Shown: positions 1 to 13,434 of the stretch, one piece after another
Numbering within the stretch: position 1 is the stretch's first letter
How the letters are laid out: each line of letters opens with the position of its first letter
From: a bacterium
GTDB lineage: Bacteria; UBP15; UBA6099; DSWB01
Reading direction: 5' to 3'
Length of the DNA: 13,434 bases
Assembly: GCA_020061125.1 (NCBI GenBank)
Contig: JAGUYV010000172.1
Location: 1 to 13,434 of the forward strand
Notes under the pieces: model-generated
Database searches by the model: none
Seen by the model: the letters and a program-made list of their open reading frames with translations, nothing else
What the model was told of the DNA's origin: nothing
Position numbers and translations under genes: made by a program

Positions 1-79
1 CCACAATTCCCGACTGCGCAAGTGCGTCCTGCACCGCACTCGTTCTTTCTGGCTGCAGATAAGCGACAATCATTTTCAC
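1..79 (-). CDS. nitrogen regulatory protein PII (GlnB/GlnK family), N-terminus only
   Basis: Reading the minus strand from a GTG at 79-77 gives 26 codons that continue off the left edge. They start MKMIVAYLQPER and go on to TSAVQDALAQSGIV. This matches the first beta strand and helix of PII proteins, which open with M-K-x-I-x-A-x-I-x-P followed by an amphipathic helix ending in a short L-x-x-x-G-I/V segment. PII trimers sense 2-oxoglutarate, ATP and ADP and control glutamine synthetase, ammonium channels or NtrB. An ATG two codons in (73-71) is an alternative start; the GTG was chosen because the leading M-K is typical of the family. The ribosome binding site is weak (a G-rich run and AGG just upstream). 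A sigma-54 promoter lies about 63 bases upstream, which is how many glnB/glnK genes are controlled. The T-loop and C-terminus are outside the window, so GlnB and GlnK cannot be told apart. Confidence 0.72.
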   Translation of the reverse strand, partial: MKMIVAYLQPERTSAVQDALAQSGIV

Positions 80-141
80 GGCGCCTAACCCCCATTTCTT
101 GTGCGCGGGACACGATAGCGCCGCGCACTGCCAGTTCATAA

Positions 142-158
142 TGCAAAACCCGTGCCAG
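142..158 (-). promoter_or_regulatory. sigma-54 (RpoN) promoter for the PII gene
   Basis: The minus strand reads CTGGCACGGGTTTTGCA, which matches every defined position of the sigma-54 consensus YTGGCACGRNNNTTGCW, including the -24 GG and -12 GC with correct spacing. The GC of the -12 element is at 144-143, so transcription should start near 131-132, about 52 bases before the PII start codon. Such promoters need an enhancer-binding activator, here most likely NtrC under nitrogen limitation (inference from the gene). I did not find a convincing NtrC palindrome between 160 and 320. Confidence 0.8.
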
Positions 159-272
159 CGCGGAACCGTCGGGAATTTCATGGGGTTAAAACGATGTTTT
201 AGGATTGAACGCGAATTTCAAACAGCAAAGCCACCGCCTTTTGCGGCGCGTTTTTGTCATCTTTCCCTAAGC

Positions 273-315
273 GCGGCACATAAATGTAGCCTTTCGGCAA
301 GACATGATGTGCCGC
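273..315 (-). other. long hairpin with GAAA loop directly after the fapA stop
   Basis: On the minus strand GCGGCACAT (315-307) pairs perfectly with ATGTGCCGC (281-273), 9 bp. Inside it, ATGT pairs with ACAT, then GCC with GGC, closed by a GAAA loop, a GNRA tetraloop on this strand only. Small unpaired bases separate the three stems. It begins 5 bases after the fapA stop codon. No U-run follows, so it does not look like a simple intrinsic terminator; a 3' stability element or processing site is possible. Chance pairing cannot be excluded. Confidence 0.4.
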
Positions 316-319
316 CTTT

Positions 320-1807
320 TCAGTACGGACCCATGACGATATTTTCGTTCTGTTCGGAGAAGCTGCAGTATTTGCTCTCCTGGCGAACGGAGTATGTGGA
401 ATTCGGGGTGATGATTTTCACATTCGGGTGGCACACGCCGCGCACGCGGCATACGCCGCCCTTGAGCGCGTCGAGCTTGCGGCGGAAAAATTTGAGCCGC
501 GAAGACGCGTCGTCAATCATGGCGTCGAGCTGCTGCAGCGCGGGCACGGATTTTTTGAGAAGCTCTTCCTTGTCCGGGGGCAGATCTCCCTTGTCCCTGC
601 GGTCCTCGAGGGTTCTGACATTGAGCGCGAGCTTCTGGCGTTTTTCCAGAAACGCGGCCAGATCTCTTTCCAGGTCTTTGTAGATTTTTCCGGAGCGCGG
701 GCCAAGGCCGATTTCCACCACGGTTTCGGTGAACGACGGCGAACCAAGTTCCGTGACATCGCAGACCTTGCCGCACACGATGCGGCCGCCCATGATGCTG
801 CCCTTGGGGTTGGACAGGGTGATGTTCTCCCCGGCGAAGAGCTGGCTGTGGCGCGCGGCCTGGGTGATGGTGATGTCGCGGTCGGCCTCCACGATGCCGC
901 TTTCCACGGACCGGATGACCACGCTGTCGCCCGCGGTGATGCGGCCTTCGTTCATGCCGTACAGCCCGCCGCCCACGAAAGCGCTGCCCCCGGCCTGCAC
1001 CGTGGCTTTTTCCACATTGCCTTTTATCTGGATGTCCTGCGCGGCCTTGACCGTGAACTCCGCCAGCACATTGCCGTGAATCAGCACGGAGCCGTCGAAA
1101 TCAATGTTGCCCACGCCGAAGTCCACATCGCCGGGCACCTCGAACACTGGGCTGACGAAGAGCACGCCGTCGCGCAGGATGGGCTGGCCGCTGATGGCTG
1201 CGGTGACGGTCAGTCCGTCCTCGCTCAATTCCGCATTGTCTCCGGGAACCAGATCCGCGTCGCGGCCCATGACCGCAGGAATTTCGCCGCCGCACACATC
1301 ACGGCCCGGCTCGCCCATGGTGGGCGGAGTTTTCACTGCCATGACCGCGCCCTTGTCCACGCTGTCCACCAGATTCAATTCATAGGGGTTCACATTTCCC
1401 TGTTCATCCGGCTCCAGGCGCACCACGCCGCGATCAATGTTGAATGTGTATTCGATGCGCGCATGGCGGCCGTTCGTGGGCGCCTGCCCATGGGCCGCGG
1501 ACACGAAAAATCCAAACGACCCGTACATAAAAATCTCGGACACGGCTTTTTCGTCAATGCCGAAACACACGCCCGCATCGCGCAGTGCGTCCAGCACATC
1601 CTGCGGCCCGAGGTCGCGGCCTGCGTCCAGCGGGGCCTTTACACGCACCCACGCCTTGAGCCGGTCCTCGGCGATTTTCACCGCGACGGGCGCGTCGTCC
1701 TGCTCCAGTTCGGCTTGCTGGCGGTCGTATTCCTCGAGGCTTTTGAGAAGCTCGTCCTCGCGGCTCGGGGCGGCCGGTTCCGGGTCTGGCTGTTTATCCC
1801 TGGGCAT
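320..1807 (-). CDS. fapA: FapA / DUF342 family polymer-forming protein
   Basis: 495 residues. An N-terminal alpha/beta domain (about 40-210) is followed by a right-handed beta-helix-like stretch rich in G-x-V/I repeats (about 210-350, with segments such as GNVLAEFTVKA and GDSVVIRS), a charged coiled coil (about 370-450), and a short C-terminal strand region ending in CSFSEQNENIVMGPY. This order and length are those of DUF342/FapA proteins. In vibrios FapA links the glucose PTS to flagellar or transcriptional control; in most bacteria the function is unknown and a membrane or cytoskeletal scaffold has been suggested. The reading frame is open 25 codons further up (to 1882), but AGGAG at 1819-1815 sits 7 bases before the ATG at 1807 and the extra residues are a low-complexity Arg/Pro tract, so 1807 was chosen. 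It lies 128 bases after the acyltransferase gene and could be co-transcribed with it. The C-terminus looks complete. Confidence 0.85.
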   Translation of the reverse strand: MPRDKQPDPEPAAPSREDELLKSLEEYDRQQAELEQDDAPVAVKIAEDRLKAWVRVKAPLDAGRDLGPQDVLDALRDAGVCFGIDEKAVSEIFMYGSFGFFVSAAHGQAPTNGRHARIEYTFNIDRGVVRLEPDEQGNVNPYELNLVDSVDKGAVMAVKTPPTMGEPGRDVCGGEIPAVMGRDADLVPGDNAELSEDGLTVTAAISGQPILRDGVLFVSPVFEVPGDVDFGVGNIDFDGSVLIHGNVLAEFTVKAAQDIQIKGNVEKATVQAGGSAFVGGGLYGMNEGRITAGDSVVIRSVESGIVEADRDITITQAARHSQLFAGENITLSNPKGSIMGGRIVCGKVCDVTELGSPSFTETVVEIGLGPRSGKIYKDLERDLAAFLEKRQKLALNVRTLEDRRDKGDLPPDKEELLKKSVPALQQLDAMIDDASSRLKFFRRKLDALKGGVCRVRGVCHPNVKIITPNSTYSVRQESKYCSFSEQNENIVMGPY

Positions 1808-1814
1808 GAGCGGT

Positions 1815-1819
1815 CTCCT
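1815..1819 (-). promoter_or_regulatory. ribosome binding site that decides the fapA start
   Basis: The minus strand has AGGAG followed by a 7-base spacer and the ATG at 1807-1805. The longer frame starting at 1882 has no comparable site. A 7-bp perfect hairpin (GCGGCCG, loop, CGGCCGC; 1840-1859) lies just upstream and would be in the 5' untranslated leader if 1807 is the true start. Confidence 0.7.
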
Positions 1820-1935
1820 GTGGCGCTGGAATGGGCGCGGCGGCCGGTTTCGCGGCCGCTGCTCCTGACTATATATCGTCATAACCGTGGCGCGGGTTTA
1901 TGAAACGAGATAATAATCACACGCCGCAGGGCAGG

Positions 1936-2631
1936 TCATGGGGCCGTGGCGCGTGGGCGGTCTTTGCGCAACAGTTCCAGCACGCCCTGGCGCACGCGCT
2001 CGGCCTCGCGGTCCAGAGCCTCGCGGTTTTGAATATCCGCCTCCGACAGGTTCAAGCGCATGGGCGCGCCGAACCGAACCGTGACTTTCACGGGCAGCAG
2101 CACGGGCGCGGGCAGCAGCCATGTTGGCGGCTGGCCTTCCTCTTCCTTGATCCACAGTATCGGGCCGGCCTCCTCGATGCCCGCCACGGACACCGGCACA
2201 ACGGGCGCGCCGGACAACGCCGCAAGCCTCGCCACCCCCGGGAAAAAACGCCGGATGCGGTACGGCGTGGCGATCGAATTGTTGTTCCCTTCAGGGAAAA
2301 TGCCCGCCGCGCCTCCGCTCTTGATGTAATCCGTGATCTCATCGTACGGGAACGGCTTGTTCTTGCTCACCAGAATGGCGTCGAACGCCGCGCACAGCTT
2401 GTCCCACAGCGGAAACTCGTCCCCGTAGCTCCAGGCGATCCAGCGGATGGGCCGGTCCGCGAGCGCGGTGTTCAGCACGAAGCCGTCCCACCCGAACCAG
2501 TGCGTATGGTTGGGCGCGAGCAGGAACCCCTGGCCCGGCGGCGGGATGTTGTCCCGGCCGATGACCTCGAGGCGGTGAAACGCTTTCACCAGCGGCGCGG
2601 CCGCGCGAATGATGTCCCTGTGAAAAGCCAT
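1936..2631 (-). CDS. PlsC-like 1-acyl-glycerol-phosphate acyltransferase family protein
   Basis: 231 residues, the normal size of a short PlsC/LPLAT-family enzyme, which transfers an acyl chain to a lysophospholipid or related acceptor at the inner membrane. Visible motifs: NHTHWFGWD at 41-49, which contains His44-x4-Asp49 (the catalytic HX4D pair); GGAAGIFPEG at 106-115 (the FPEG substrate-binding motif III); and GAPVVPVSVAGIEEAG at 141-156 (motif IV region). The catalytic His is two residues later than in the usual NHxSxxD arrangement, so the active-site loop is atypical. No clear membrane helix is visible. GGAG lies 10 bases before the ATG, with a TATAAT promoter about 40 bases upstream. 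Substrate is unknown; membership in the superfamily is well supported, a role as true PlsC is not. Confidence 0.82.
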   Translation of the reverse strand: MAFHRDIIRAAAPLVKAFHRLEVIGRDNIPPPGQGFLLAPNHTHWFGWDGFVLNTALADRPIRWIAWSYGDEFPLWDKLCAAFDAILVSKNKPFPYDEITDYIKSGGAAGIFPEGNNNSIATPYRIRRFFPGVARLAALSGAPVVPVSVAGIEEAGPILWIKEEEGQPPTWLLPAPVLLPVKVTVRFGAPMRLNLSEADIQNREALDREAERVRQGVLELLRKDRPRATAP

Positions 2632-2668
2632 TGCCTATCGTCTCCATAAAAAATTGAACGCCGGAAAT

Positions 2669-2697
2669 ATTATACACCCGCTGCGGCGGGGTCTTTA
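2669..2697 (-). promoter_or_regulatory. sigma-70-type promoter of the acyltransferase gene
   Basis: A perfect -10 TATAAT is at 2674-2669 on the minus strand. A weak -35 (TAAAGA, 2697-2692) lies 17 bases upstream. The spacer contains a 5-bp hairpin (CCCGC, loop, GCGGG; 2677-2690). Transcription would begin near 2662, leaving a leader of about 30 bases. The -35 is poor, so another factor may help. Confidence 0.5.
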
Positions 2698-3332
2698 ATA
2701 ATTTGAATTACCGCAGGTGCATGCTGCACGCCATGCCGCACTAACTCGAGCGCCGGGATTTTCATGTTTGCGGCAACCGCCTTTAACCGCGTACCATGGA
2801 TTCCAAGCATCGAGGCTGTTTCAATAAGGCATTTGAATGATGAAATTCCGTGAAAATCCTGTCGTGTAACAAAACGGAAGCCATAAGAGGCGTGGAAACG
2901 GCAAGGCACCGTCATAACGGTTCAAAACGCGAAATCATAGAGAGTTGGAAGAGCTGCATGCACATAGATGGGGGGTATTGCCATGGCCCGCCTTTGACGC
3001 TGTACAGGTTTTTCACGCGAACACGCACGAATGACAAGTCCAGGCATTTGTCCACCAGCTTGAGAACGAGAGCTGATGTGCCTGTGATTTCCGGGCAATT
3101 CCTGCTCCCTTGCTTGAGCAACGCCGAATGACAGCATCGCTCTTGCTCGTTGGCATCATTTATGCAAAAGTTCTTTTCATCACCTTCCAAGATTAATGCG
3201 ATGAGTTTGAAAGCAATTCTGCAATGAGAGCGACTACAGAATAACAGGCTTCGTTCCTACAGCTTTGAAACGATATCAATGGTCTGCCATTTGGAATCTT
3301 TATATCGTGCTCAACGCCCGCACGGGGTTGTG
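2698..3332. other. gene-poor, AT-richer intergenic region
   Basis: This stretch has clearly lower GC and mixed third positions compared with the flanking genes, and no reading frame I can assign to a family. The longest frames are short (about 80-90 codons) and lack good ribosome binding sites. One minus-strand frame (2915-2670) holds a segment that loosely resembles a helix-turn-helix (ETASMLGIHGTRLKAVAANM), but its codon use is not like the neighbours and its stop overlaps the -10 box of the acyltransferase promoter. I see no tRNA, terminator or repeat array. It may be a decayed gene or simply a divergent promoter region. Confidence 0.4.
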
Positions 3333-3341
3333 TGGTATAAT
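3333..3341 (+). promoter_or_regulatory. extended -10 promoter of the nfeD-SPFH operon
   Basis: TGGTATAAT is a perfect extended -10 element (TGnTATAAT). No good -35 is present at the usual distance, which extended -10 promoters tolerate. Transcription would start near 3348, about 50 bases before the TTG start codon of the NfeD gene. Confidence 0.55.
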
Positions 3342-3383
3342 TGTTTTTGCGCATCAGCGGCGGATTGGAATTCGGACAATGAC

Positions 3384-3391
3384 GGAGGAGG
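3384..3391 (+). promoter_or_regulatory. strong ribosome binding site that sets the TTG start of nfeD
   Basis: GGAGGAGG followed by a 7-base spacer and TTG at 3399. The same frame runs upstream to an ATG at 3279, but that start lies before the -10 promoter and its added residues do not resemble NfeD, so the TTG is preferred. Confidence 0.75.
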
Positions 3392-3398
3392 CCGGACC

Positions 3399-3848
3399 TT
3401 GGACATACTGTTGACCCCCTGGGTGCTGTGGGCGCTGCTGGCCCTGGCGCTGCTTGTCATGGAAGCGTTCTTGAGCGGGTTTTTCATTTTCTGGTTCGGC
3501 ATCGGGGCGATCCCCGCGGCGATAACCGCGTTCGCGGTTCCCAACAACATCGTGCTGCAGCTCGCGGTGTTCGCGGCGGCGTCCATTGTCGCCATGGTCG
3601 CGGGCCGGCCTTTCACAAAGCGGCTTTACAAGGGCGGGTCGGACGAGAAATTCGGCGCTGACCGGCTTGTTGGATCGTGCTGCGTGGTGCAGGAAACCAT
3701 AGACCCGGACACGGGCAAGGGCCTGGTGCGTGCGGAGCACGACGAATGGCGCGCGGAAACCGCGGACGGATCCGTGGTGGAAAAAGGCGCAAAAGTGCGT
3801 GTGGTGCGCATTGCGGGCACGCGCCTGATCGTGGAAGCAATGGACTGA
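3399..3848 (+). CDS. NfeD family membrane protein (short form)
   Basis: 149 residues from a TTG start. Two to three transmembrane helices (about 8-23, 27-46 and 50-68, with WALLALALLVMEAFLSG at the start) are followed by a soluble C-terminal beta-barrel of OB-fold type (about 85-148, containing GLVRAEHDEWRAE and ending KVRVVRIAGTRLIVEAMD). The typical NfeD signature W-x-A near the barrel centre and the final G-x-x-L-x-V-E are present. The short NfeD form lacks the serine protease domain. NfeD proteins are partners of SPFH proteins, and the next gene, 44 bases downstream on the same strand, encodes one. Together they likely form a membrane microdomain or quality-control complex, by analogy with YbbK-YbbJ/QmcA systems. 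Confidence 0.88.
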   Translation: MDILLTPWVLWALLALALLVMEAFLSGFFIFWFGIGAIPAAITAFAVPNNIVLQLAVFAAASIVAMVAGRPFTKRLYKGGSDEKFGADRLVGSCCVVQETIDPDTGKGLVRAEHDEWRAETADGSVVEKGAKVRVVRIAGTRLIVEAMD

Positions 3849-3849
3849 C

Positions 3850-3863
3850 GGCGCGACTGCGCC
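3850..3863 (+). other. small intercistronic hairpin between nfeD and the SPFH gene
   Basis: GGCGC, a four-base loop GACT, then GCGCC, followed by TCTACA. It starts right after the nfeD stop. The sequence resembles half of the palindromic repeat unit found at 5063-5237 (also GC-rich arms followed by CTACA), but the match is short and may be coincidence. It could modulate relative expression of the two genes. Confidence 0.25.
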
Positions 3864-3892
3864 TCTACAACAGATAACGGGAGGTTATTGCA

Positions 3893-4954
3893 ATGGGAGG
3901 AACGGCAGCAGCGGCTCTTGGAATTTTCCTGATGGGGTTCCTGGTTTTTCTCGTAATCGCCGCGGCGCTCATGATCCGCATCATCAAACCCTATGAGCGC
4001 GGCATCATCGAGCGGCTCGGAAAGTACCAGAAGACCGTGGACAGCGGCATGACGGTGATTCTGCCGTTCGGCATTGACTCGCTTGCCAAGGTGGACATGC
4101 GCGAGATGGTGCTGGATGTGCCGCCCCAGGAAGTCATCACATCGGACAATGTGGTCGTGACCGTGGACGCGGTGATTTACACCGAAGTCACGGACCCGGT
4201 GCGCGTAAAGTACAATGTGGAGAATTTCTATTTGGCGACCATAAAGCTTGCGCAGACCAACCTGCGCAACCTGATCGGCGACATGACCCTGGACGAATCC
4301 CTCACCTCGCGCGAGGGCATCAATGTGAAGCTGCGCAACATTCTGGACGAAGCCACGGACAAATGGGGCGTGCGCGTGGCGCGCGTGGAACTGCAGCGCA
4401 TCGAGCCGCCCGCGGATGTGACCACGGCCATGCACCGGCAGATGAAGGCCGAGCGCGAACGCCGCGCCATGATCCTCGAGGCCGACGGCATGCGCGAATC
4501 CGCCATTAAAAAGGCCGAGGGCGTGCGCCAGTCGCAAATCCTTGAGGCCGAAGGCCAGGCCCAGGCCATCCGCCTCAAGGCCGACGCCGACCAGTACCAG
4601 AAGCTCACCGTGGCCATCGGCGAAGCCCAGGCCATCGAAACCGTGTACGGCGCCATCCACAACGGCGATCCCACGGACGACCTTATCGCCATCAAGTACC
4701 TCGAAGCTCTGCAGGGCATCGCGGACGGCCAGGCCACGAAAATTTTCCTGCCTCTGGATTCTGCATCCCTCATGGGCAGCATCGGCACGCTTGCGGAATT
4801 GTTCAAGGATCGCATGGGCCAAGGCCCCACACGCGGTCACAAAGGCTACAAGCGCCCCGAGCCGCCCAAGCCCGCGGAACCGCCTGTACCGGAAGCGCCC
4901 AAGTTCAACCCGGCGTATCCCAATCCGGCCCTGCCTCCCGACCAGATGGCCTGA
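3893..4954 (+). CDS. SPFH/stomatin-like membrane protein (QmcA type)
   Basis: 353 residues. A single N-terminal membrane helix (about 8-28) precedes the SPFH/band-7 domain (about 29-190): RIIKPYERGIIERLGKY, then SGMTVILPFGID, VITSDNVVVTVDAVIYTEV and WGVRVARVELQRIEPP, all hallmark blocks. A charged heptad-rich region (about 180-250, MKAERERRAMILEADGMRES and AEGQAQAIRLKADAD) forms the oligomerisation coiled coil. A C-terminal proline-rich tail (about 310-353) is unusual but common in divergent members. GGGAGG sits 8 bases before the ATG. It is the second gene of an NfeD-SPFH operon; the proteins form large ring assemblies in the inner membrane and are linked to FtsH-type proteolysis in relatives. 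Family assignment is firm, the precise function is not. Confidence 0.92.
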   Translation: MGGTAAAALGIFLMGFLVFLVIAAALMIRIIKPYERGIIERLGKYQKTVDSGMTVILPFGIDSLAKVDMREMVLDVPPQEVITSDNVVVTVDAVIYTEVTDPVRVKYNVENFYLATIKLAQTNLRNLIGDMTLDESLTSREGINVKLRNILDEATDKWGVRVARVELQRIEPPADVTTAMHRQMKAERERRAMILEADGMRESAIKKAEGVRQSQILEAEGQAQAIRLKADADQYQKLTVAIGEAQAIETVYGAIHNGDPTDDLIAIKYLEALQGIADGQATKIFLPLDSASLMGSIGTLAELFKDRMGQGPTRGHKGYKRPEPPKPAEPPVPEAPKFNPAYPNPALPPDQMA

Positions 4955-4971
4955 ACCGCGGATAGTGATTT

Positions 4972-4986
4972 GCCGGCTCTACCGGC
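4972..4986 (+). terminator. possible weak terminator hairpin after the SPFH gene
   Basis: GCCGG, loop CTCTA, CCGGC, 17 bases after the stop codon, followed by GCGCTTTG. The stem is only 5 bp and the T-run is three bases, so termination here is doubtful. Confidence 0.25.
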
Positions 4987-5062
4987 GCGCTTTGCCCATA
5001 AAAACATTCCGGCGGAATCGCCTGCCGCATCGCCTTCAGCGATTTATTGGCAACTATCATTG

Positions 5063-5237
5063 ATGTAGGGCGCGGTCGCCGAACCGCGCCGGAACCAAGT
5101 GACGACTTGCTGTCCGATGCATCTGCACATCGCGCGGCGCAAATTGTCAGACATGGTTGCCGGTGGCTGTGCGCTTTGAAACTCATCATGGATTCCCGTT
5201 ACAGAATAAGGCGCGGTTCGGCGACCGCGCCCTACAT
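5063..5237. repeat. REP-pair / MITE-like element with 28-bp perfect inverted repeats
   Basis: The arms at 5063-5090 and 5210-5237 are exact reverse complements over 28 bases, separated by 119 bases. Each arm carries its own palindrome: GGCGCGGT and ACCGCGCC around a 6-base loop (5069-5090 and 5210-5231), with ATGTAG at the outer edge. Two hairpin units in inverted orientation are the layout of bacterial REPINs or BIMEs; a small non-autonomous transposon is the other reading. I see no target-site duplication at the edges and no open frame of note inside. It lies between two convergent transcription units, where it could also end transcription from both sides. The rest of 4955-5387 holds nothing else I can assign. 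Confidence 0.8.
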
Positions 5238-5387
5238 TACCCCTCATGTTGTTTGACGCTTATGCTGCAATTTATGAAATAGCAGAAAAACACGACGGGG
5301 GCGATGGCCCTCTCATAATCCTGTATCAACCGCAGCCACCCATAAATCTTCACCTGTCCGTTGGGAGACACCCTTGCGCGATGCGCG

Positions 5388-5756
5388 TCAGTCCGGCTGG
5401 AAGCACCCGGAAATCATGTCGCCGGTCTTGATGTTGTGGGTGCGGATTGCGCCCGCGGGCATTTCGAGGGCGGCGCGCGCGCCGCGGCGGGGCATGAAGC
5501 AGCGCCAGGGCCGGATACTTTCGCGCAGATCCACGATGCGGCCCGCGGAGTCCGTGAAAATCACATCTATGCAAAAACGCATGAAGAAGGTGTGAATGGA
5601 GGTGCATGGGGTGAGAATCAGGGCGTCGGCACGGCCGAACGCGCGGCGGAACATGAGGCCCAGAAAGCGGGACGCAAACGAATCCGCAACCGCGGCGCTG
5701 TGCGCGATGACTGCGGGGCGGCTGCTGTCAGGCTTGTGCAGTGTCAGGGTCTTCAT
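5388..5756 (-). CDS. DUF192 family protein, last gene of the Tad operon
   Basis: 122 residues covering the whole DUF192 fold: SRFLGLMFRR at 29-38 (the G-L-M-x-R block), CTSIHTFFMRFCIDVIFTD at 51-69 (the H-x-F-x-M-x-x-x-I-D-V-x-F block), and EMPAGAIRTHNIKTGD at 98-113 (the L-E-x-P-A-G-x-x-x-x-x-x-I-x-x-G-D block). The usual Pro before Ile-Asp-Val is a Cys here. DUF192 proteins have a compact beta fold and no agreed function. No signal peptide is seen, whereas many DUF192 proteins are exported. The ATG is 5 bases after the tadC stop, so it is almost certainly translated with the pilus genes; whether it serves the pilus is unknown. Confidence 0.88.
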   Translation of the reverse strand: MKTLTLHKPDSSRPAVIAHSAAVADSFASRFLGLMFRRAFGRADALILTPCTSIHTFFMRFCIDVIFTDSAGRIVDLRESIRPWRCFMPRRGARAALEMPAGAIRTHNIKTGDMISGCFQPD

Positions 5757-5761
5757 GGCGA

Positions 5762-6706
5762 TCACATTCCGGCCTTGAGGGCGTCCATGAGCTTGAGCAT
5801 GGCCGGCCCCCACACGATGATGAGCATGGATGGGAAGATGAACAGCACGAGCGGGAACAGGAGCTTGAGCGGCGCTTTCATGGCGGCTTCCTCGGCGCGC
5901 TGGCGGCGCTTCTGGCGCATGCTCTCGGATTGCACGCGAAGCACCTCGGCGATGCTCACTCCGAGCTGGTAGGACTGGATAAGCGCGGCGCAGAAGATTT
6001 TCATGTCCGGCAGATCCACGCGGTCGCTCATGGCGCGCAGGGCGTCGCTGTGCTTGAGTCCGATGCGCATGTCCTGGAGCATGCGGCGGATTTCCATGGA
6101 CACCGCGCCCTTGAGCTTTTCCGCGGCGTGCATGAGCGCCTGCTCGAAGCCCAGGCCCGCTTCCACGCTCACGCTCAACAGATCGAGCAGATCGGGCAGG
6201 CTGTCGCTGATTTCGGTTTTGCGCTCGGTCTCCTTGAGGCGCAGCCACAGGTCCGGGGCCATGAACCCGAGCATGGGCGCGAGCAGAATGAAGGACGGCA
6301 GGCGGCGGACCACATCCGCGTTCGCACCCAGACCAACGCGGGCCGAGACATAGAACAGCACAAATGCGCCGCCCGTGATGAGCGCGGCCAGGCCCTTGAT
6401 GCCTAGAAAGGTCATGGGTTCCGTGCGCGGGTATCCGGCCAGGGCCAGGCGGCGCTCCACGCGGTCCAGAAAACTCTGCGGCGTCACGCTGCCCAGGAGC
6501 GCGCCCAGGCGCGAGAACACGGGCTGCAGCACGCGCTCGGCGAACGGGCGCGCCATCTCCAGTTCGTGCAGGGAAATGCCTCCGTCGCTCACATCTATGC
6601 TCTGGAGGCGCGCCTTGATCTGACGGCGCCGCATCATCGAATCCGCGATGCTGTACGACAGCGCCGCGCACGATACGCAGATCATGATCGCAAAGATGAT
6701 TTGCAT
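5762..6706 (-). CDS. tadC: TadC, Tad pilus inner-membrane platform protein
   Basis: 314 residues with a T2SSF (GspF/PilC-like) domain at about 169-293: SLPDLLDLLSVSVEAGLGFEQAL, then IGLKHSDALRAMSDRV and ALIQSYQLGVSIAEVLR, the typical TadC blocks. Membrane helices are at about 3-20, 100-120, 135-152 and 280-300. Together with TadB it anchors the CpaF ATPase to the membrane and helps extract and polymerise the Flp pilin. Its ATG is 4 bases after the tadB stop, and AAGGTG in the end of tadB serves as ribosome binding site, so the two are translationally linked. Confidence 0.93.
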   Translation of the reverse strand: MQIIFAIMICVSCAALSYSIADSMMRRRQIKARLQSIDVSDGGISLHELEMARPFAERVLQPVFSRLGALLGSVTPQSFLDRVERRLALAGYPRTEPMTFLGIKGLAALITGGAFVLFYVSARVGLGANADVVRRLPSFILLAPMLGFMAPDLWLRLKETERKTEISDSLPDLLDLLSVSVEAGLGFEQALMHAAEKLKGAVSMEIRRMLQDMRIGLKHSDALRAMSDRVDLPDMKIFCAALIQSYQLGVSIAEVLRVQSESMRQKRRQRAEEAAMKAPLKLLFPLVLFIFPSMLIIVWGPAMLKLMDALKAGM

Positions 6707-6710
6707 GGCG

Positions 6711-7658
6711 TCACACCTTGATGTCCACGATTTTGCGGATGATCAGCATGCCCAGGACTTCGCTCACGGCCGCGGCGGACAGCATCATGCGGCCCACGGA
6801 TTCCTTGAAAAGAATGCCGATGTAGTCCGGGGAAATCAGATACATGACAACGGCCAGGATCACGGGCAGGAGCACGAGAATCACGCCCGAGAGTCGGCCC
6901 TGCGCGGTGAGGGTTCGCACCTGGCCCTTGATGCGCACGCGCTCGCGGATGGTGACCGCTATCTTGTCCAGAATTTCCGACAGGTTTCCGCCCACCTCGC
7001 GCTGGATGATCACGCTGGTCATCACCAGATCAATGTCCGCGTTGTCCACGCGTTCCACGAGATTCTTCACGGACTGCTCGAAGGCCATGCCGAGCTTGAT
7101 CTCCTGAAGCATTTTGGCGAACTCCTCGCACACGGGCGGGGGAAGCTCGCGGGTGATGAGGTCAATGGATTGCAGGAAGCTGTACCCGGACTTGAGGGAA
7201 TTCGAGATCAGGGTCACGGCGTCGAGCATCTGGGCCTCGAACATTTTTTTACGCGCGGCCTGGCGGTGGCGCAGATAGAAAAAAGGAAGAGCCGCGCCCG
7301 CGGCCGAGCAGATTATGGCCAGGGGCTTGCTGTTGAAAAACAACAGAACCAGAAGCGGAACGAACGACGCGCACAGGAACACGATGACGATGAACTCGGA
7401 GACCTTGATTGTGAGATTGGCGCGGCGCAGAGCGCGGCGCAGCATGGCGGTGGCGCTGAATTTCTTGATGGCCGCGTCCAGAGCCGTGAAAACGCCGCCC
7501 TCGGATTTGGGTCTGGCGGCCTCGGGTTCTTCAAAAAGCTCCGCGTCTCCGGCCTGCATGCGACGCTCCAATTTTCTGCGGCGGCGCGCGTCTGCAAACC
7601 CGGCGGCGAAGAACACGGCCAGGGAAATGGCGAGAAAGATCAGAATTGCCGTCAGCAT
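6711..7658 (-). CDS. tadB: TadB, Tad pilus inner-membrane platform protein
   Basis: 315 residues from the ATG at 7658. Membrane helices are at about 3-20, 87-107, 113-129, 258-276 and 291-307; the T2SSF domain is at about 142-270, with FEAQMLDAVTLISNSLKSGYS, LGMAFEQSVKNLVERV and VIIQREVGGNLSEILDKIA as the diagnostic blocks. It forms the platform with TadC. A GTG at 7673 in the same frame overlaps the cpaF stop by 4 bases (GTGA), but GAGG lies 9 bases before the ATG at 7658 and the protein begins there in the usual hydrophobic way; the GTG start (320 residues) remains possible. Confidence 0.92.
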   Translation of the reverse strand: MLTAILIFLAISLAVFFAAGFADARRRRKLERRMQAGDAELFEEPEAARPKSEGGVFTALDAAIKKFSATAMLRRALRRANLTIKVSEFIVIVFLCASFVPLLVLLFFNSKPLAIICSAAGAALPFFYLRHRQAARKKMFEAQMLDAVTLISNSLKSGYSFLQSIDLITRELPPPVCEEFAKMLQEIKLGMAFEQSVKNLVERVDNADIDLVMTSVIIQREVGGNLSEILDKIAVTIRERVRIKGQVRTLTAQGRLSGVILVLLPVILAVVMYLISPDYIGILFKESVGRMMLSAAAVSEVLGMLIIRKIVDIKV

Positions 7659-7669
7659 GGCGGCGGTCC

Positions 7670-9028
7670 TCACACTTCACAGAAAACTGACAGCGGCATT
7701 TTGATGCCCGCGGCCTTGAACCGTTCCACGAACTGGGGCACGATGCCCGTGGGTTTGATTTTGCCGATGTAGCGGCCTCTGTCGTCCACGCCCTGGCTCT
7801 CGAACTTGAAGATGTCCTGGAGCGTGATGATGTTGTTTTCCAGTCCGAGCACCTCGGTGATGTGCGTGATGCGGCGCGTGCCGTCCTTGAGGCGTTCCTG
7901 GTGCACGATGAGATCCAGGGCCGAGCAGATCTGCTCGCGAATGGCGCGCAGGGGCAGGTCCATGCCGGCCATGAGCACCATGGTTTCGATGCGGGCCAGG
8001 GTGTCGCGGGGCGAGTTCGAGTGCGCGGTGGTGATGGACCCGTCGTGGCCCGTGTTCATGGCCTGCAGCATGTCAAGGGATTCGCCGCCGCGCACCTCGC
8101 CGATCACGATGCGGTCCGGGCGCATGCGCAGGCAGTTGCGCACAAGATCGCGAATGGAGACATGGCCCTTGCCCTCGATGTTGGGCGGGCGGCTTTCCAG
8201 GGTCACCACATGGTCCTGCCGCAGTTGCAGTTCGGCCGCGTCCTCCACGGTCACGATGCGCTCGTCGGTTGGAATGAATGACGAGAGCACATTCAGCGTA
8301 GTGGTTTTGCCCGAGCCGGTGCCGCCGGACACGATGATGTTAAGTCGCGCCCTGACGCAGGATTCAAGGAAAGTGGCGATCTCGCGGGAGATGGTGCCGA
8401 ACCCGATCAGATCCTCGACCTGGAAGGGATCCTTTGAGAATTTGCGGATGGTGAGGCAGGGGCCGGTCAGCGCCAGGGGCGGGATGATCGCATTGACGCG
8501 GGACCCGTCCTTGAGGCGCGCGTCCACCATGGGCGACGCCTCGTCAATGCGCCGGCCCAGCGGGGACACGATTTTCTCGATGATGCGCAGCACATGGGTT
8601 TTGTCCTTGAACCGCACGGCCGTTTTTTCGAGGCGGCCCGCGCGTTCCACATACACGGAGTCCGGGCCGTTGACCATGACCTCGTTGATTTCCGGGTCGC
8701 GGATCAGCGGCTCGATGGGGCCGAGTCCCAGAATTTCGTGGCTCAACTCCTCGATGACGCGCTCGCGCTCGGCCCGGTGCATGACCATGCCGTTGTTCTC
8801 GACCACGGACTCGACCACCGTGGATATGGCTTTGAGGGTTTTGTCCTCGCGCACATCTCCGAACAGAATGTCCTCGCCCAGTTCCTCGACCAGGCGTTCG
8901 TGAACCTGCGCGCGCAGTGCGGCCATGGCGGCATCCCGCTTGCGCCGCGCCTGCTTTTCGTGTTCGGACTCCGCGGGTTCTCCGCCGTTGGCCTGCGCGG
9001 TTGTTTTGACTCGATCCAGAAGACCCAT
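7670..9028 (-). CDS. cpaF: CpaF/TadA, Tad pilus assembly ATPase
   Basis: 452 residues. The N-terminal region (about 40-140) holds RDPEINEVMVNGPDSVYVERAG in two parts, typical of CpaF. The RecA-like ATPase has Walker A GGTGSGKTT at 235-243, the Asp box VEDAAELQL at 261-269, Walker B IVIGEVRGGE at 307-316, and the His box GHDGSITTAHSNSPRD at 327-342. All key residues are present. The hexameric ATPase powers assembly, and in some systems retraction, of the Flp pilus. GGGAGGA lies 8 bases before the ATG. It follows cpaE after 17 bases and its stop overlaps the alternative GTG of tadB. Confidence 0.97.
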   Translation of the reverse strand: MGLLDRVKTTAQANGGEPAESEHEKQARRKRDAAMAALRAQVHERLVEELGEDILFGDVREDKTLKAISTVVESVVENNGMVMHRAERERVIEELSHEILGLGPIEPLIRDPEINEVMVNGPDSVYVERAGRLEKTAVRFKDKTHVLRIIEKIVSPLGRRIDEASPMVDARLKDGSRVNAIIPPLALTGPCLTIRKFSKDPFQVEDLIGFGTISREIATFLESCVRARLNIIVSGGTGSGKTTTLNVLSSFIPTDERIVTVEDAAELQLRQDHVVTLESRPPNIEGKGHVSIRDLVRNCLRMRPDRIVIGEVRGGESLDMLQAMNTGHDGSITTAHSNSPRDTLARIETMVLMAGMDLPLRAIREQICSALDLIVHQERLKDGTRRITHITEVLGLENNIITLQDIFKFESQGVDDRGRYIGKIKPTGIVPQFVERFKAAGIKMPLSVFCEV

Positions 9029-9045
9029 AGCCCCGTTCCTCCCTG

Positions 9046-10227
9046 TTACTTAGCGGTTCTTTTCCCGAAGAGGGACAGCAGCCCCCTGCGGCGCGGCGCG
9101 GGTTCGGGAGCTCCGCACAGCGCACGCGCCATGTCCGTGACCGCGAGCGAATATTTGTTTCTCGGACTGACGCATACGGCGGGAGCGCCCGCGTTCACAG
9201 TCTGAACCAGCAGATTTCCGTCGCTCGGAATCTGGTAATTGACTTTGCGTTTGCACAGCTTTTCAATTTCCGCCCTGGTGATGCCGAACTTGCTGTCGCT
9301 GCGGTTCATGATGATCTCGATGCGGTCGTTCTCGTAGCCCAGAGAATTGGTCATCACATCGAGCACGCGCTTGAGGTTTTTCACGGACAGAATGATAGGC
9401 GTGACAATGAGGAAAACTTTCTGGGAGCGGTCGAGAGCAGCCAGAGACACATCGTGGAACGAAGGCGCCGTGTCAATAAGGATGTAATCGAACTGCCCCT
9501 GCAGGCCGCGCAGAAGAGCCTCGATGTGGTGGCTTTTGATCAGTTCGGCTTCCTCGGGTTTGGCGGGCGAGGCGAGCAGGGAAATGTTCTCGCGGATCTG
9601 GGTGAGACAGGACGCGGCCTGGTCTGGCTGACCGCCGCCCGAGATGGCGTCCACGATGGTGGCGCGGGGGTGCGCGTCGAAGATCATGGCCAGATCTCCG
9701 AATTGCAGATCAAGGTCCAGGAGGCACACGCGCGTGTCCGGCCTTTCGCTGGCCAGAGCGAACGCCATGTTCGCCAGCAGAGTGCTTTTGCCCGCTCCGC
9801 CCTTGGTAGTGAAGAAAGTGAAGGTCTGCGTATCGCGCGCCTGCGAGGGTTCGGAAGCAGGTGCGGGCGCGGCGCGCAGGCTGCCCGATGCGCGGTTGAG
9901 GATTTCCTCGATGTGCCGGGGATCGATGGGACGCGCCAGAAAATCGCGCGCGCCATAGCGCATGGCCAGGCGCATGGCGTCCGGCTCGTTCCTTTCGGAA
10001 ACGAACACGATGCAGGTTCCAGGATTGCGCGCAAGGGGCGAGCCGTTCAGGGTTTCGCGCACATCGTCAAAATCAATCAGCGCCAGGTCAGGGCATTCGT
10101 TCGCGGGCAGGGCCTTGAGCGCATCCAGTGCGGGCAGTGTCCGCACCTGCGCGCAGCCGTCGAGCGCCTGGCGCAGGTCGTCCCAGTTGCGTGAACTGAC
10201 AATCGCGGCCGTGTGTTTTGTGTCCAT
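9046..10227 (-). CDS. cpaE: CpaE/TadZ, ParA-like pilus localisation ATPase
   Basis: 393 residues. An atypical receiver-like N-terminal domain (about 5-115; acidic stretch DLALIDFDD at 47-55, but the usual Lys before Pro is Arg in ARPID) is followed by a MinD/ParA ATPase: deviant Walker A KGGAGKST at 142-149, Walker A' DLDLQFGD at 171-178, Walker B DYILIDTAP at 247-255. CpaE/TadZ proteins place the Tad apparatus at a cell pole or other site. The receiver has probably lost phosphorylation and serves as a docking domain. The GTG at 10239 is in frame, but the ATG at 10227 has AAGGTGGGG upstream and was chosen. It begins 13 bases after the secretin stop. Confidence 0.94.
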   Translation of the reverse strand: MDTKHTAAIVSSRNWDDLRQALDGCAQVRTLPALDALKALPANECPDLALIDFDDVRETLNGSPLARNPGTCIVFVSERNEPDAMRLAMRYGARDFLARPIDPRHIEEILNRASGSLRAAPAPASEPSQARDTQTFTFFTTKGGAGKSTLLANMAFALASERPDTRVCLLDLDLQFGDLAMIFDAHPRATIVDAISGGGQPDQAASCLTQIRENISLLASPAKPEEAELIKSHHIEALLRGLQGQFDYILIDTAPSFHDVSLAALDRSQKVFLIVTPIILSVKNLKRVLDVMTNSLGYENDRIEIIMNRSDSKFGITRAEIEKLCKRKVNYQIPSDGNLLVQTVNAGAPAVCVSPRNKYSLAVTDMARALCGAPEPAPRRRGLLSLFGKRTAK

Positions 10228-10240
10228 GGCAATCCCCACC

Positions 10241-11599
10241 TTAGTTGACTCCGTTGCCGGCCGGTTCGGGCCGGGTGTCCACGCCGGGCGCGGACAGGAT
10301 CCGCGACAGGTCTATAAATCGTTTTTCCACGCCTGCAGCCGGTTCCGCATCCTGCATGATGTGCGGGGTGAGCGAGATGACCAGCTCGGATTTGCTCGTT
10401 TGCGTGCGCTTGCTGCGGAACAGGCCGCCCACTGCGGGCAGGTCCCCGAGCACCGGCACTTTCTTGCGCTCCGTGGTGGTTTCCTCGTTTGTGAGTCCGC
10501 CCAGGAAAACCGTTTCGCCGTCCTGCAGGCGGATTTCAGAAAGCACCTCGCGGGTGTTGATGATGGGCGCGGCGGTCTCGCTCGACGAACTGGGATTTCC
10601 CACCCAGCCGACCACATTGCTCACCTCGGGCTTGACCCACAGGGTGATGCTCTGGTCTTCGCCCACGCGAGGCACTACGGTCAGGATGATGCCCGTGTTC
10701 ATGTAGGTGTAGGACACCAGGCCGCGCTCGTTGTCGCGGGATGCGATGGGCAGGCTTTCGCCGGACAGGATCCACGCCGTGTTTCCATCCAGCACCGCAA
10801 CCTTGGAGTTCACCAGGGTTTCGCCGATTTCGTGGGTTTGAAGCGTATTGAGCGTAATGGTGAACCTGTCCGTAAGATCGTTGAAGGTGTCGAACACGAA
10901 CGACATGGCGTCGCCGGTTTCGGCATTGGTGTCGGCAGTTGCGGAATAGCGCCCATTCTGTCCCATGAGAATATTGCCAAGTCGCTTGATGTCGTCGTTG
11001 CCGATTTCAATCACGCGCGCTTCGATGACCACCTGGCGGCGGGGCGAATCCAGGTCGTGAAGCATGGCGCGCGCCGCTTCGAGCTCTTCGGGCGTTCCGA
11101 GCATTGACACGCGGTTGCCCATTCCGTCAATGGTTACATGCTCCGCGCCCAGGAGCGGCGTGAGCATGGCCGCCACATGCTTGAGTTTGGCCTCGTCCAC
11201 CTTGGTGATGACCTCGGTGTAGGTGTCGTTCACTTTCTGCTCGGTGTAGGTGAAGTTGTAGTGGCGGAACTGGAAGGATTCGCGTTCGAGGAGCGCGGCC
11301 TGCGAGGACACGCGCACGGTGAAGGACTGCATTTCATCCGAAGGCCCGGCCCAAACCGCGAGTGTGGTTGCGCCCGGCGTTTTGGCGTTGAGCAGGATTT
11401 CGTCCGCGCGATCGGGGAATGTGGCCATATCGGCCACGGCCGGGTTACCCACGGCCATGCGTTTGAGCTGGGGGAAGGCCATGACCAGGGTTTCACCCTC
11501 AAACAGGGAGATCTCTTTTCGAGGGGCGTCCGCAGCCCGGGCCGGGGCGCAGGCCATGAATACAATCAGAAAGATGGAAGCATATTTAAGGGATTTCAT
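10241..11599 (-). CDS. cpaC: CpaC/RcpA, Tad pilus outer-membrane secretin
   Basis: 452 residues. A signal peptide (about 1-22, ending ACAPARA-AD) precedes the pilus-assembly N-terminal domain (about 27-97, EISLFEGETLVMAFPQLKRM and VGNPAVADM), a BON-like and N1 region (about 110-200), and the secretin core (about 240-415): SKVAVLDGNTAWILSGE, GIILTVVPRV, VLSEIRLQDGETVFLGGL, and the invariant VPVLGDLPAVGGLFRS at 381-396. A secretin ring lets the pilus cross the outer membrane, showing a diderm host. AGGAG lies 7 bases before the ATG, inside the end of cpaB; the start overlaps the cpaB stop by 4 bases (ATGA). Confidence 0.96.
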   Translation of the reverse strand: MKSLKYASIFLIVFMACAPARAADAPRKEISLFEGETLVMAFPQLKRMAVGNPAVADMATFPDRADEILLNAKTPGATTLAVWAGPSDEMQSFTVRVSSQAALLERESFQFRHYNFTYTEQKVNDTYTEVITKVDEAKLKHVAAMLTPLLGAEHVTIDGMGNRVSMLGTPEELEAARAMLHDLDSPRRQVVIEARVIEIGNDDIKRLGNILMGQNGRYSATADTNAETGDAMSFVFDTFNDLTDRFTITLNTLQTHEIGETLVNSKVAVLDGNTAWILSGESLPIASRDNERGLVSYTYMNTGIILTVVPRVGEDQSITLWVKPEVSNVVGWVGNPSSSSETAAPIINTREVLSEIRLQDGETVFLGGLTNEETTTERKKVPVLGDLPAVGGLFRSKRTQTSKSELVISLTPHIMQDAEPAAGVEKRFIDLSRILSAPGVDTRPEPAGNGVN

Positions 11600-12705
11600 T
11601 GCGCGGCTCCTTTCACGGCGAGCGGGAATTCATTCACTGGCACGAGTGCGGACGGGGGCGCGGAAGAGCTGCCCGCGGACGGGTGCGACGAAAGCTGCGA
11701 TCCGCGCATTACATACACGCCCGGCCCCGCGGGCGGCGCGCCCGCGGGCGCTCCCAGATATTCCTGCGGCACCACGGGCAGAGGGTCCATGTCCGGCATG
11801 GGCTGCGACGCATAATGAGACGCCGCGCGGCGCGAGGCCTTGGCCGCGTCATTGTCTGCGTTTTCTTCTTTTTCACTCTTCACGGATGTGACTTTTGCGA
11901 TACGCGACGCGTCGAATCCATTGACTTCAAGCAGATCCGTGGCGAACACAGGCTGAAACGCCTTGTCCGAATCCGGGTAGTCGCGCTCGTCCGCGCCGTG
12001 CAGTGTGAGCTTGATGTGGCCGATGGACTCGGCCAGCACAAGCATGCTTGCATGGCGCGGCTCCACAGCAAGGGTTACGCTCTGATACTCGGGGCCGTCG
12101 TTGTCCATCTTGGACGACATTTTCTGCATGGTGTCGCCAGGCCAGGACTCGAGCTTTTTGTCCACGGCCAGCACCAGGGTTTTCCGCAGTAGCGTCGTAC
12201 CCACATCCGGGCCGTTGATTTTGCGTCCGTCCACGAACAGGAGAATGTCCACGAAGTCGCCCGGCCGGATCATGTTGGCAACGCCCGTGGGAACGCTCGT
12301 GGGAATGGTTACGGCGCGGTATCCCGCGGGGATGGCGAAGGTGAGATCCGAAGGCGCTTTCTTTCCCGCGATGTGAGGCTCCAGCAGCACTTCGTCCTTG
12401 ATGAGATCGTCGTTCAGAATCTTGTCCACAGCCTTCTTGACATCGGACACGGCCATGGGGTGGGCCAGGCTTTTAGGCACCTCCACGGCCTTGAGCATTT
12501 CTGGCTTGATTTTGGTGCGTCGCGGGATGTCTTTGACTGCAACCACAACCATGCGTGTTTCCTGCTCCTGGGCCGCGGCGGCGTTTTTAGAAGCGGCGTT
12601 TTTCTTGGAAAACGGCGCTGCGCCGTGCGACCACGCATAGAACGCGCCAGCGGCCAGAAGGCCCAGCAGCAGCGACGCCGCAATGACCACTCCTTTTTCT
12701 CTCAT
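11596..12705 (-). CDS. cpaB: CpaB/RcpC, Tad pilus periplasmic assembly protein
   Basis: 369 residues. A single N-terminal membrane helix (about 5-24) is followed by a SAF domain (about 52-113, MVVVAVKDIPRRTKIKPEML and LLEPHI) and the RcpC/CpaB domain (about 117-260, FAIPAGYRAVTIPTS, IRPGDFVDILLF, VTLAVEPRHASMLVLAE). CpaB is thought to brace the secretin in the periplasm and gate it. The last 90 residues (about 280-369) are an Ala/Pro/Ser-rich, low-complexity tail longer than in most CpaB proteins; it may be a flexible tether to peptidoglycan or to the secretin (inference). It overlaps cpaC by 4 bases. GAGG lies 11 bases before the ATG. An 83-base gap, in which I see no gene, separates it from the TadE gene. 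Confidence 0.93.
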   Translation of the reverse strand: MREKGVVIAASLLLGLLAAGAFYAWSHGAAPFSKKNAASKNAAAAQEQETRMVVVAVKDIPRRTKIKPEMLKAVEVPKSLAHPMAVSDVKKAVDKILNDDLIKDEVLLEPHIAGKKAPSDLTFAIPAGYRAVTIPTSVPTGVANMIRPGDFVDILLFVDGRKINGPDVGTTLLRKTLVLAVDKKLESWPGDTMQKMSSKMDNDGPEYQSVTLAVEPRHASMLVLAESIGHIKLTLHGADERDYPDSDKAFQPVFATDLLEVNGFDASRIAKVTSVKSEKEENADNDAAKASRRAASHYASQPMPDMDPLPVVPQEYLGAPAGAPPAGPGVYVMRGSQLSSHPSAGSSSAPPSALVPVNEFPLAVKGAAQ

Positions 12706-12788
12706 GGGTTTTCAGTCCTCTCTCACAAAGTTATTTCAAGAGCGCATGAAGCCGGAAGTCTCCGCATGGCGCGCACTGGCGGCGCATG

Positions 12789-13241
12789 TCAGATTCCTCC
12801 TTCAAAGCGGAACTCGGCCTCGCCGGCCAGGTTCTGCGGCACAATGAGCCAATCAATGCCGGTGATGGGCACATACGCCTGGTTCGCGATAGAGACTTTT
12901 ATGGATTGGATCTGTGAGGCGTCCGGCAGGATTGTAATGGTTATGTTGCCTGCGATGTTGTTTGTGATCTGGCCGGGCAGGGCCTGAAGGCGCTGCTGCA
13001 CGATGGCTTTGATCTCCGCTTCGCGGGTGGAATAATTCGTGCCCCAGTCGCTGATGACCACGGCCTCGCGCGCGCCCTCGCGCACCGCATTTTCTACCGT
13101 GGTTTTGCTCCACAAAAAGAAGCCCCATTCCATGAGGTGCAGGAGCAGGAACAGGAACAGGGAAGCGATGAGGGCGAATTCGACCACGGCCTGGCCGCGC
13201 TGTGCGCGGAATTTCGGGTTGTCAGTAATTGCTTTGCACAT
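12789..13241 (-). CDS. TadE-like pseudopilin
   Basis: 150 residues. The motif RGQAVVEFALIASLFLFLLLH near residues 15-35 is the TadE signature: a Gly (16), then Glu at +5 (21) in a hydrophobic helix, the pattern cut by the Tad prepilin peptidase. The rest is a small periplasmic domain with NAVREGAREAVV at 51-62, typical of TadE. Minor pseudopilins of this kind prime or tip the Flp pilus. The ATG at 13241 has GGGGTGA 5 bases upstream and was chosen; a GTG at 13250, which overlaps the cpaA stop as GTGA, would add three residues. Only one TadE-like gene is in view. Confidence 0.9.
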   Translation of the reverse strand: MCKAITDNPKFRAQRGQAVVEFALIASLFLFLLLHLMEWGFFLWSKTTVENAVREGAREAVVISDWGTNYSTREAEIKAIVQQRLQALPGQITNNIAGNITITILPDASQIQSIKVSIANQAYVPITGIDWLIVPQNLAGEAEFRFEGGI

Positions 13242-13246
13242 GAGAA

Positions 13247-13434
13247 TCACCCCGAGACATGGAAGAGCCAGGGCGTGAGAATGTGAGCGAGGATCACGCC
13301 CACGGCGATGGCGCCCGCGTAGGGGAACGCGCCCGCGGCCTGCGCCGCGTCCGCATTGCCGGCTTTGCGCGGGTCTGTGCGATAATACAGGAGCACGCAG
13401 ATGGTTTTCATGTTGCGCAGGGTGCGGCGCAGGC
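13247..13434 (-). CDS. cpaA: CpaA/TadV prepilin peptidase, C-terminus only
   Basis: The last 61 residues of a frame entering from the right edge. It ends with KAGNADAAQAAGAFPYAGAI, a hydrophobic helix AVGVILAHILTPWLF and a short tail. The Pro-Tyr-x-x-Ala-Ile-x-x-Gly motif before the last helix is typical of A24 prepilin peptidases of the CpaA/TadV type. The two catalytic aspartates lie outside the window, so the call rests on this C-terminal motif plus its place directly before tadE in a Tad operon. The enzyme cleaves Flp and TadE-type precursors at the inner membrane. Confidence 0.75.
   Translation of the reverse strand, partial: LRRTLRNMKTICVLLYYRTDPRKAGNADAAQAAGAFPYAGAIAVGVILAHILTPWLFHVSG

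Follow-up and report, generated by a model that had tools for sequence, protein, structure and literature searches.

Loss of ACGT and at least four other Type II recognition words from a bacterial draft genome

What removes a four-base word from an entire stretch of bacterial DNA? The window analyzed here is one whole contig of 13,434 bases (C445) from a draft genome of 4.12 Mb (513 contigs, 78.8% complete, about 60% G+C). A plain string search of the window finds no ACGT on either strand, in genes or in intergenic DNA. The expected number is 36.75 (SD 5.4) over 200 dinucleotide-preserving shuffles and 31.9 under a second-order Markov model. The original prediction, made from the sequence alone, was that ACGT is absent and that ACG is followed by A, C, or G but never by T; both statements hold, with 58 ACGA, 91 ACGC, 75 ACGG, and no ACGT against an expectation of ~32-37. 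The other 4-base palindromes in the window are near their second-order Markov expectation, except for CTAG, which is low in most genomes (PMC4687349).

The loss visibly shapes codon choice, as had also been claimed. Among the window's genes, all 33 NAY codons that precede GTN end in T, against 26 of the 140 that precede other G-starting codons. In the SPFH-type gene (3893..4954, + strand; named by translation), the five Asp/Asn-Val pairs (at 4115, 4148, 4214, 4322, and 4415) are all written GATGTG or AATGTG, which is a synonymous way round NACGT. Positions 5762-13250 hold a Tad/Flp-pilus-like cluster, recognized from translations only (CpaB, secretin, CpaE, CpaF, TadB, TadC, and a TadE-like pseudopilin). 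The CpaF-like protein matches proteins from many different phyla at 52-66% identity. Further words are scarce in the window: CTSAG is missing (0 vs 24.5 expected), as is CAGCTG (0 vs 4.4), RTCGAY occurs once (at 9922; 10.7 expected), and GRGCYC twice (at 9108 and 11081; 15.8 expected). The depletion of CTSAG, RTCGAY, and GRGCYC had escaped the first reading of the sequence.

Beyond the window, our word counts rest on 564-685 kb of contigs together with one genome-wide pattern count, in which SSACGTSS appears 39 times and its mirror word SSTGCASS 2,641 times. Six genomes of the same order have 864-1,119 and 358-1,058 copies, respectively. In 238.5 kb of the genome's own contigs, picked regardless of ACGT, there are 12 ACGT where 531 are expected, far below an ordinary rate. 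The observed/expected ratio of ACGT in this genome is about 0.02-0.04, compared with 0.81-0.86 in relatives from other families of the same order. Since ACGT is nearly absent genome-wide and ordinary in same-order genomes, its loss is both genome-wide and lineage-specific within the order.

As a codon-aware null, we shuffled synonymous codons within genes (559 kb, called with a model trained on the window genes). At least five words are purged under this null: ACGT (53/1452, observed/expected), CTSAG (1/569), RTCGAY (16/622), GRGCYC (46/752), and CAGCTG (5/215), with most control words lying at 0.6-1.6. ACGT is one sign of something larger. Relatives under the same shuffles have ratios of 0.71 for ACGT, 0.82 for CTSAG, and 1.19 for RTCGAY; for GRGCYC the ratio is 0.52, and low values are seen for CAGCTG and CATATG as well. 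Lineage specificity is observed for ACGT, CTSAG, and RTCGAY, none of which the same-order relatives avoid (the enzyme content of these relatives was covered by a PF00145 search only). Weaker depletion is seen in the genome itself for CATATG, CGATCG, and AAGCTT in the 564-685 kb counts.

The degenerate words are lost exactly as written. Within NTCGAN, the missing words are just ATCGAC (7/116), ATCGAT (8/136), and GTCGAC (1/99), and within GNGCNC just GAGCCC (15/188), GAGCTC (13/120), and GGGCCC (12/294); all remaining words of either family are near or above expectation. CTNAG was considered as an avoided word and rejected, CTSAG alone being at 0.01 and CTWAG at 0.33. All five purged words are known Type II restriction or modification sites. 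GRGCYC is the site of BanII and CAGCTG that of PvuII. ACGT is the site of both Hpy99XI (PMC10423294) and MaeII (PMC10113651); for CTSAG, REBASE has 263 entries as a site of Type II methyltransferases, several of them confirmed by PacBio (PMC10745947); and RTCGAY is listed for Bifidobacterium breve UCC2003 as a restriction site to avoid in guide RNAs (PMC12592239).

Such a loss could come about by mutation rather than selection, if m5C or another mutagenic modification at ACGT decayed to ATGT or ACAT, as proposed for part of the ACGT loss in Helicobacter pylori; a mutagenic ACGT-directed modification was among the possibilities in the original prediction. M.Hpy99XI and M.MaeII, both known to methylate ACGT, are m5C enzymes (PMC10423294, PMC10113651), ACGT changes in Helicobacter pylori are skewed toward ATGT/ACAT (PMC10423294), and contig C128 of the present genome encodes a C5 methyltransferase. 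The codons argue otherwise. With a hyphen marking the codon boundary, ACGT is lost from core genes in every frame (ACG-T, 3/462; NAC-GT, 24/1108; NNA-CGT, 4/36; in relatives 102/141, 254/430, and 50/45), including NNA-CGT, where both deaminations change the amino acid. The ACA share of threonine codons before T is 0.271; conversion of the lost ACG to ACA would predict 0.589, and proportional replacement 0.301. The normalized ACA/ACC ratio of 0.58 (95% interval, 0.48-0.71) is below rather than above 1. The lost ACG codons were thus not turned preferentially into ACA, which argues against 5-methylcytosine deamination, and such decay would not account for all of five unrelated words lost together. 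We therefore consider it very improbable; the synonymous loss in all frames and the threonine replacements favor selection against the word. There is a small protein-level cost as well, Asp/Asn/His/Tyr-Val pairs being down 9-21%.

The sites that do remain are located in structural RNAs, prophages, and conserved translation genes. Structural RNA makes up 0.4% of the sample yet holds 10 of 13 CTSAG, 12 of 108 ACGT, and four of 11 CAGCTG; the 108 ACGT overstate the genome-wide rate, because this sample deliberately included contigs known to hold the word. The 16S rRNA keeps six ACGT and four CTSAG, and seven ACGT remain on a contig that bears genes for RNA polymerase beta and elongation-factor-like proteins.

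Several contigs of the genome carry prophage fragments (C143, C171, C8, C259, and C78), with tail, head, transposition, and lysis genes and, in some, Mu-like transposition; two of these fragments have a DNA methyltransferase of their own. Prophage genes lack four of the words (CTSAG, 0/33; RTCGAY, 2/24; GRGCYC, 2/33; CAGCTG, 1/17) but retain 34/92 ACGT (0.37), so the pressure on phages from ACGT looks weaker or newer than that from the other sites. The same losses, that of ACGT included (2/23.4), are seen in a related viral contig that comes from a different metagenome (75-87% identity across the pieces that align). Taken together with the prophages, this contig indicates that the host's phages appear to be under the same pressure. 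Viral-contig relatives of the prophage transposase were also considered; at only 30-32% identity, they show neither the ACGT nor the RTCGAY loss.

The viral contig also bears on whether the pattern was produced by assembly, binning, or library preparation. The fragmentation of the draft into 513 contigs would favor such an artefact, but open reading frames are intact, with the word replaced by synonymous codons, the 16S rRNA on the same contigs retains ACGT and CTSAG, and the same losses recur in DNA assembled from a different metagenome. The chance of an artefact is practically negligible.

The avoidance of restriction sites is an established effect that strengthens the longer a system resides in a genome and can persist after that system is gone; among 1774 surveyed cases, it was attributed to orthodox Type II systems alone (PMC4687349). 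Our data are very probably explained by long selection, continuing at least until very recently, against the sites of several orthodox Type II restriction-modification (R-M) systems. A nuclease acting independently of its methyltransferase would occasionally cut unmodified host sites, and lineages losing those sites, mostly by synonymous mutation, would be favored until almost none were left. Sites would persist where a stronger constraint holds them (rRNA, tRNA, and conserved translation genes) or, for ACGT, in prophages. Restriction as the selective agent is a well-supported inference, and its continued action a further one. The original prediction of a long-resident ACGT-cutting enzyme is thus supported in part: it probably has the right kind of cause, but a single enzyme is too narrow a focus when four or more additional known Type II sites have been purged about as thoroughly. 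Short words would be expected to return by neutral mutation, so the completeness of the loss suggests, as a rough argument, that selection is acting now or stopped very recently.

The chief puzzle is how few methyltransferases there are for five or more purged sites. We searched the whole draft (79% complete) for five methyltransferase families and found six loci, two of them in prophages. These are an N6/N4-type gene, weakly YhdJ/CcrM-like (C172); an atypical N6/N4-type gene (C411); a D12-type gene, Dam-like by inspection (C38); a C5-type gene (C128); and the prophage genes of C259 and C78. N6_Mtase and Eco57I had no match in the draft. The ACGT-specific restriction or methylase gene that had been anticipated was not identified among these five families in the 79% draft, none of the six loci being assigned to ACGT, and the same search yielded no cognate methyltransferase or nuclease for the five words. 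This counts against the R-M explanation, but in a draft that is 79% complete, missing enzyme genes are no proof. Most simply, R-M islands would vary among strains and assemble poorly, which would place them in the fifth of the genome that the draft lacks; the systems would then be encoded either in that unrecovered portion or in a pool that differs from strain to strain. Three other genomes are also poor in ACGT (SSACGTSS vs mirror word: G019, 5 vs 508; G028, 2 vs 251; G047, 3 vs 138). G019, which is 99% complete and has no ACGT in 20 kb where 90 are expected, has no match to PF00145, PF01555, or PF02086, and no methyltransferase family is common to the three.

Only one methyltransferase locus adjoins a probable nuclease. 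The cassette of C128 (L041:417-2871) consists of a C5 methyltransferase, a DUF4928 gene that matches a PADLOC model for Type II restriction enzymes, and Vsr. This pairing would fit the ACGT system, the known ACGT methyltransferases being of C5 type (PMC10423294, PMC10113651), and contig C128 itself has one ACGT where 16.9 are expected. However, three of six other DUF4928 genomes have ordinary ACGT (G040, 142/133; G057, 151/123; G312, 135/149), two are mildly low (G311, 138/212; G199, 60/136), and one is low in a very small sample (G320, 3/16). Homologous cassettes also sit on plasmids with ordinary ACGT, which is weak evidence because the cassette's own methylase would protect them. With no consistent ACGT loss across these genomes and plasmids, we did not assign the cassette to ACGT, and its being the ACGT system seems unlikely.

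The plasmids are small and carry the same C5 methyltransferase-DUF4928-Vsr order, with DUF4928 proteins 57% identical. They include plasmids of Pseudomonas aeruginosa and Burkholderia (L242 and L243), one with several resistance genes. The original prediction also raised a mobile defense system that moves between relatives; this may be so, the cassette being of a mobile type, but nothing links it to ACGT. GRGCYC is nearly missing from three cassette plasmids among L242-L246 (0/26.7, 0/28.1, and 2/36.1) and kept in two others (12/17.6 and 27/30.7). The GRGCYC-poor plasmids could hint at the specificity of the cassette or merely reflect a broad host range.

Two further readings start from the small number of methyltransferases. 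The R-M systems may have been long present and now be lost, leaving no enzyme to find; the few methyltransferases in the draft would fit, and prokaryotes commonly retain traces of systems that they have lost (PMC4687349). Against this, a loss long ago would not leave so complete a depletion (in genes, CTSAG is at 0.002; ACGT is at about 0.02-0.04; again a rough argument), all systems would need to have been lost recently, and the related phage contig from another metagenome has the same losses. We think it distinctly unlikely. Slightly less probable still, in our judgment, is that site loss replaces modification: several Type II nucleases, or an R-M pool shared among strains and phages, would act while most cognate methyltransferases were absent from the individual, the loss itself giving protection. 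If most cognate methyltransferases are truly missing, the genome raises the question of whether site loss can replace methylation.

At least five Type II footprints stand out so sharply here that word counts by themselves reveal the exact degenerate recognition sequences. The genome is thus well suited to reconstructing the restriction history of uncultured bacteria, and to measuring which constraints outweigh restriction (tRNA, rRNA, and conserved translation genes).

Compared with known systems, this genome is an extreme and unusually complete case of a known avoidance effect, not a new mechanism. As in the survey of Rusinov et al. 2015 (PMC4687349), the shortage of Type II sites is genome-wide, affects palindromic and degenerate words, is weaker in recent foreign DNA, and is possible without a recognized system. 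It differs in that most cognate enzymes were not found in this draft and in its depth: the five sites have observed/expected ratios of about 0.002-0.06 in genes, whereas the survey threshold was 0.78. PabI-type restriction glycosylases of Helicobacter and Campylobacter offer a parallel in the near-loss of one 4-base palindrome, there GTAC, a loss interpreted as a sign that a toxic restriction enzyme has been inherited over a long period (PMC10273834); here, in contrast, GTAC is ordinary (0.80 under codon shuffles). The MaeII R-M system of Methanococcus aeolicus shares the word itself, MaeII cutting A^CGT and its methyltransferase being an m5C enzyme (PMC10113651). The closest match in density is H. 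pylori with M.Hpy99XI, whose East Asian strains have about 53 ACGT per Mb (PMC10423294), against about 50 per Mb here (12 in 238.5 kb of contigs chosen regardless of ACGT). In H. pylori, however, deamination to ATGT/ACAT was judged a main driver (PMC10423294), against which the codons argue here, and the present genome, at about 60% G+C, has four further sites purged as strongly.
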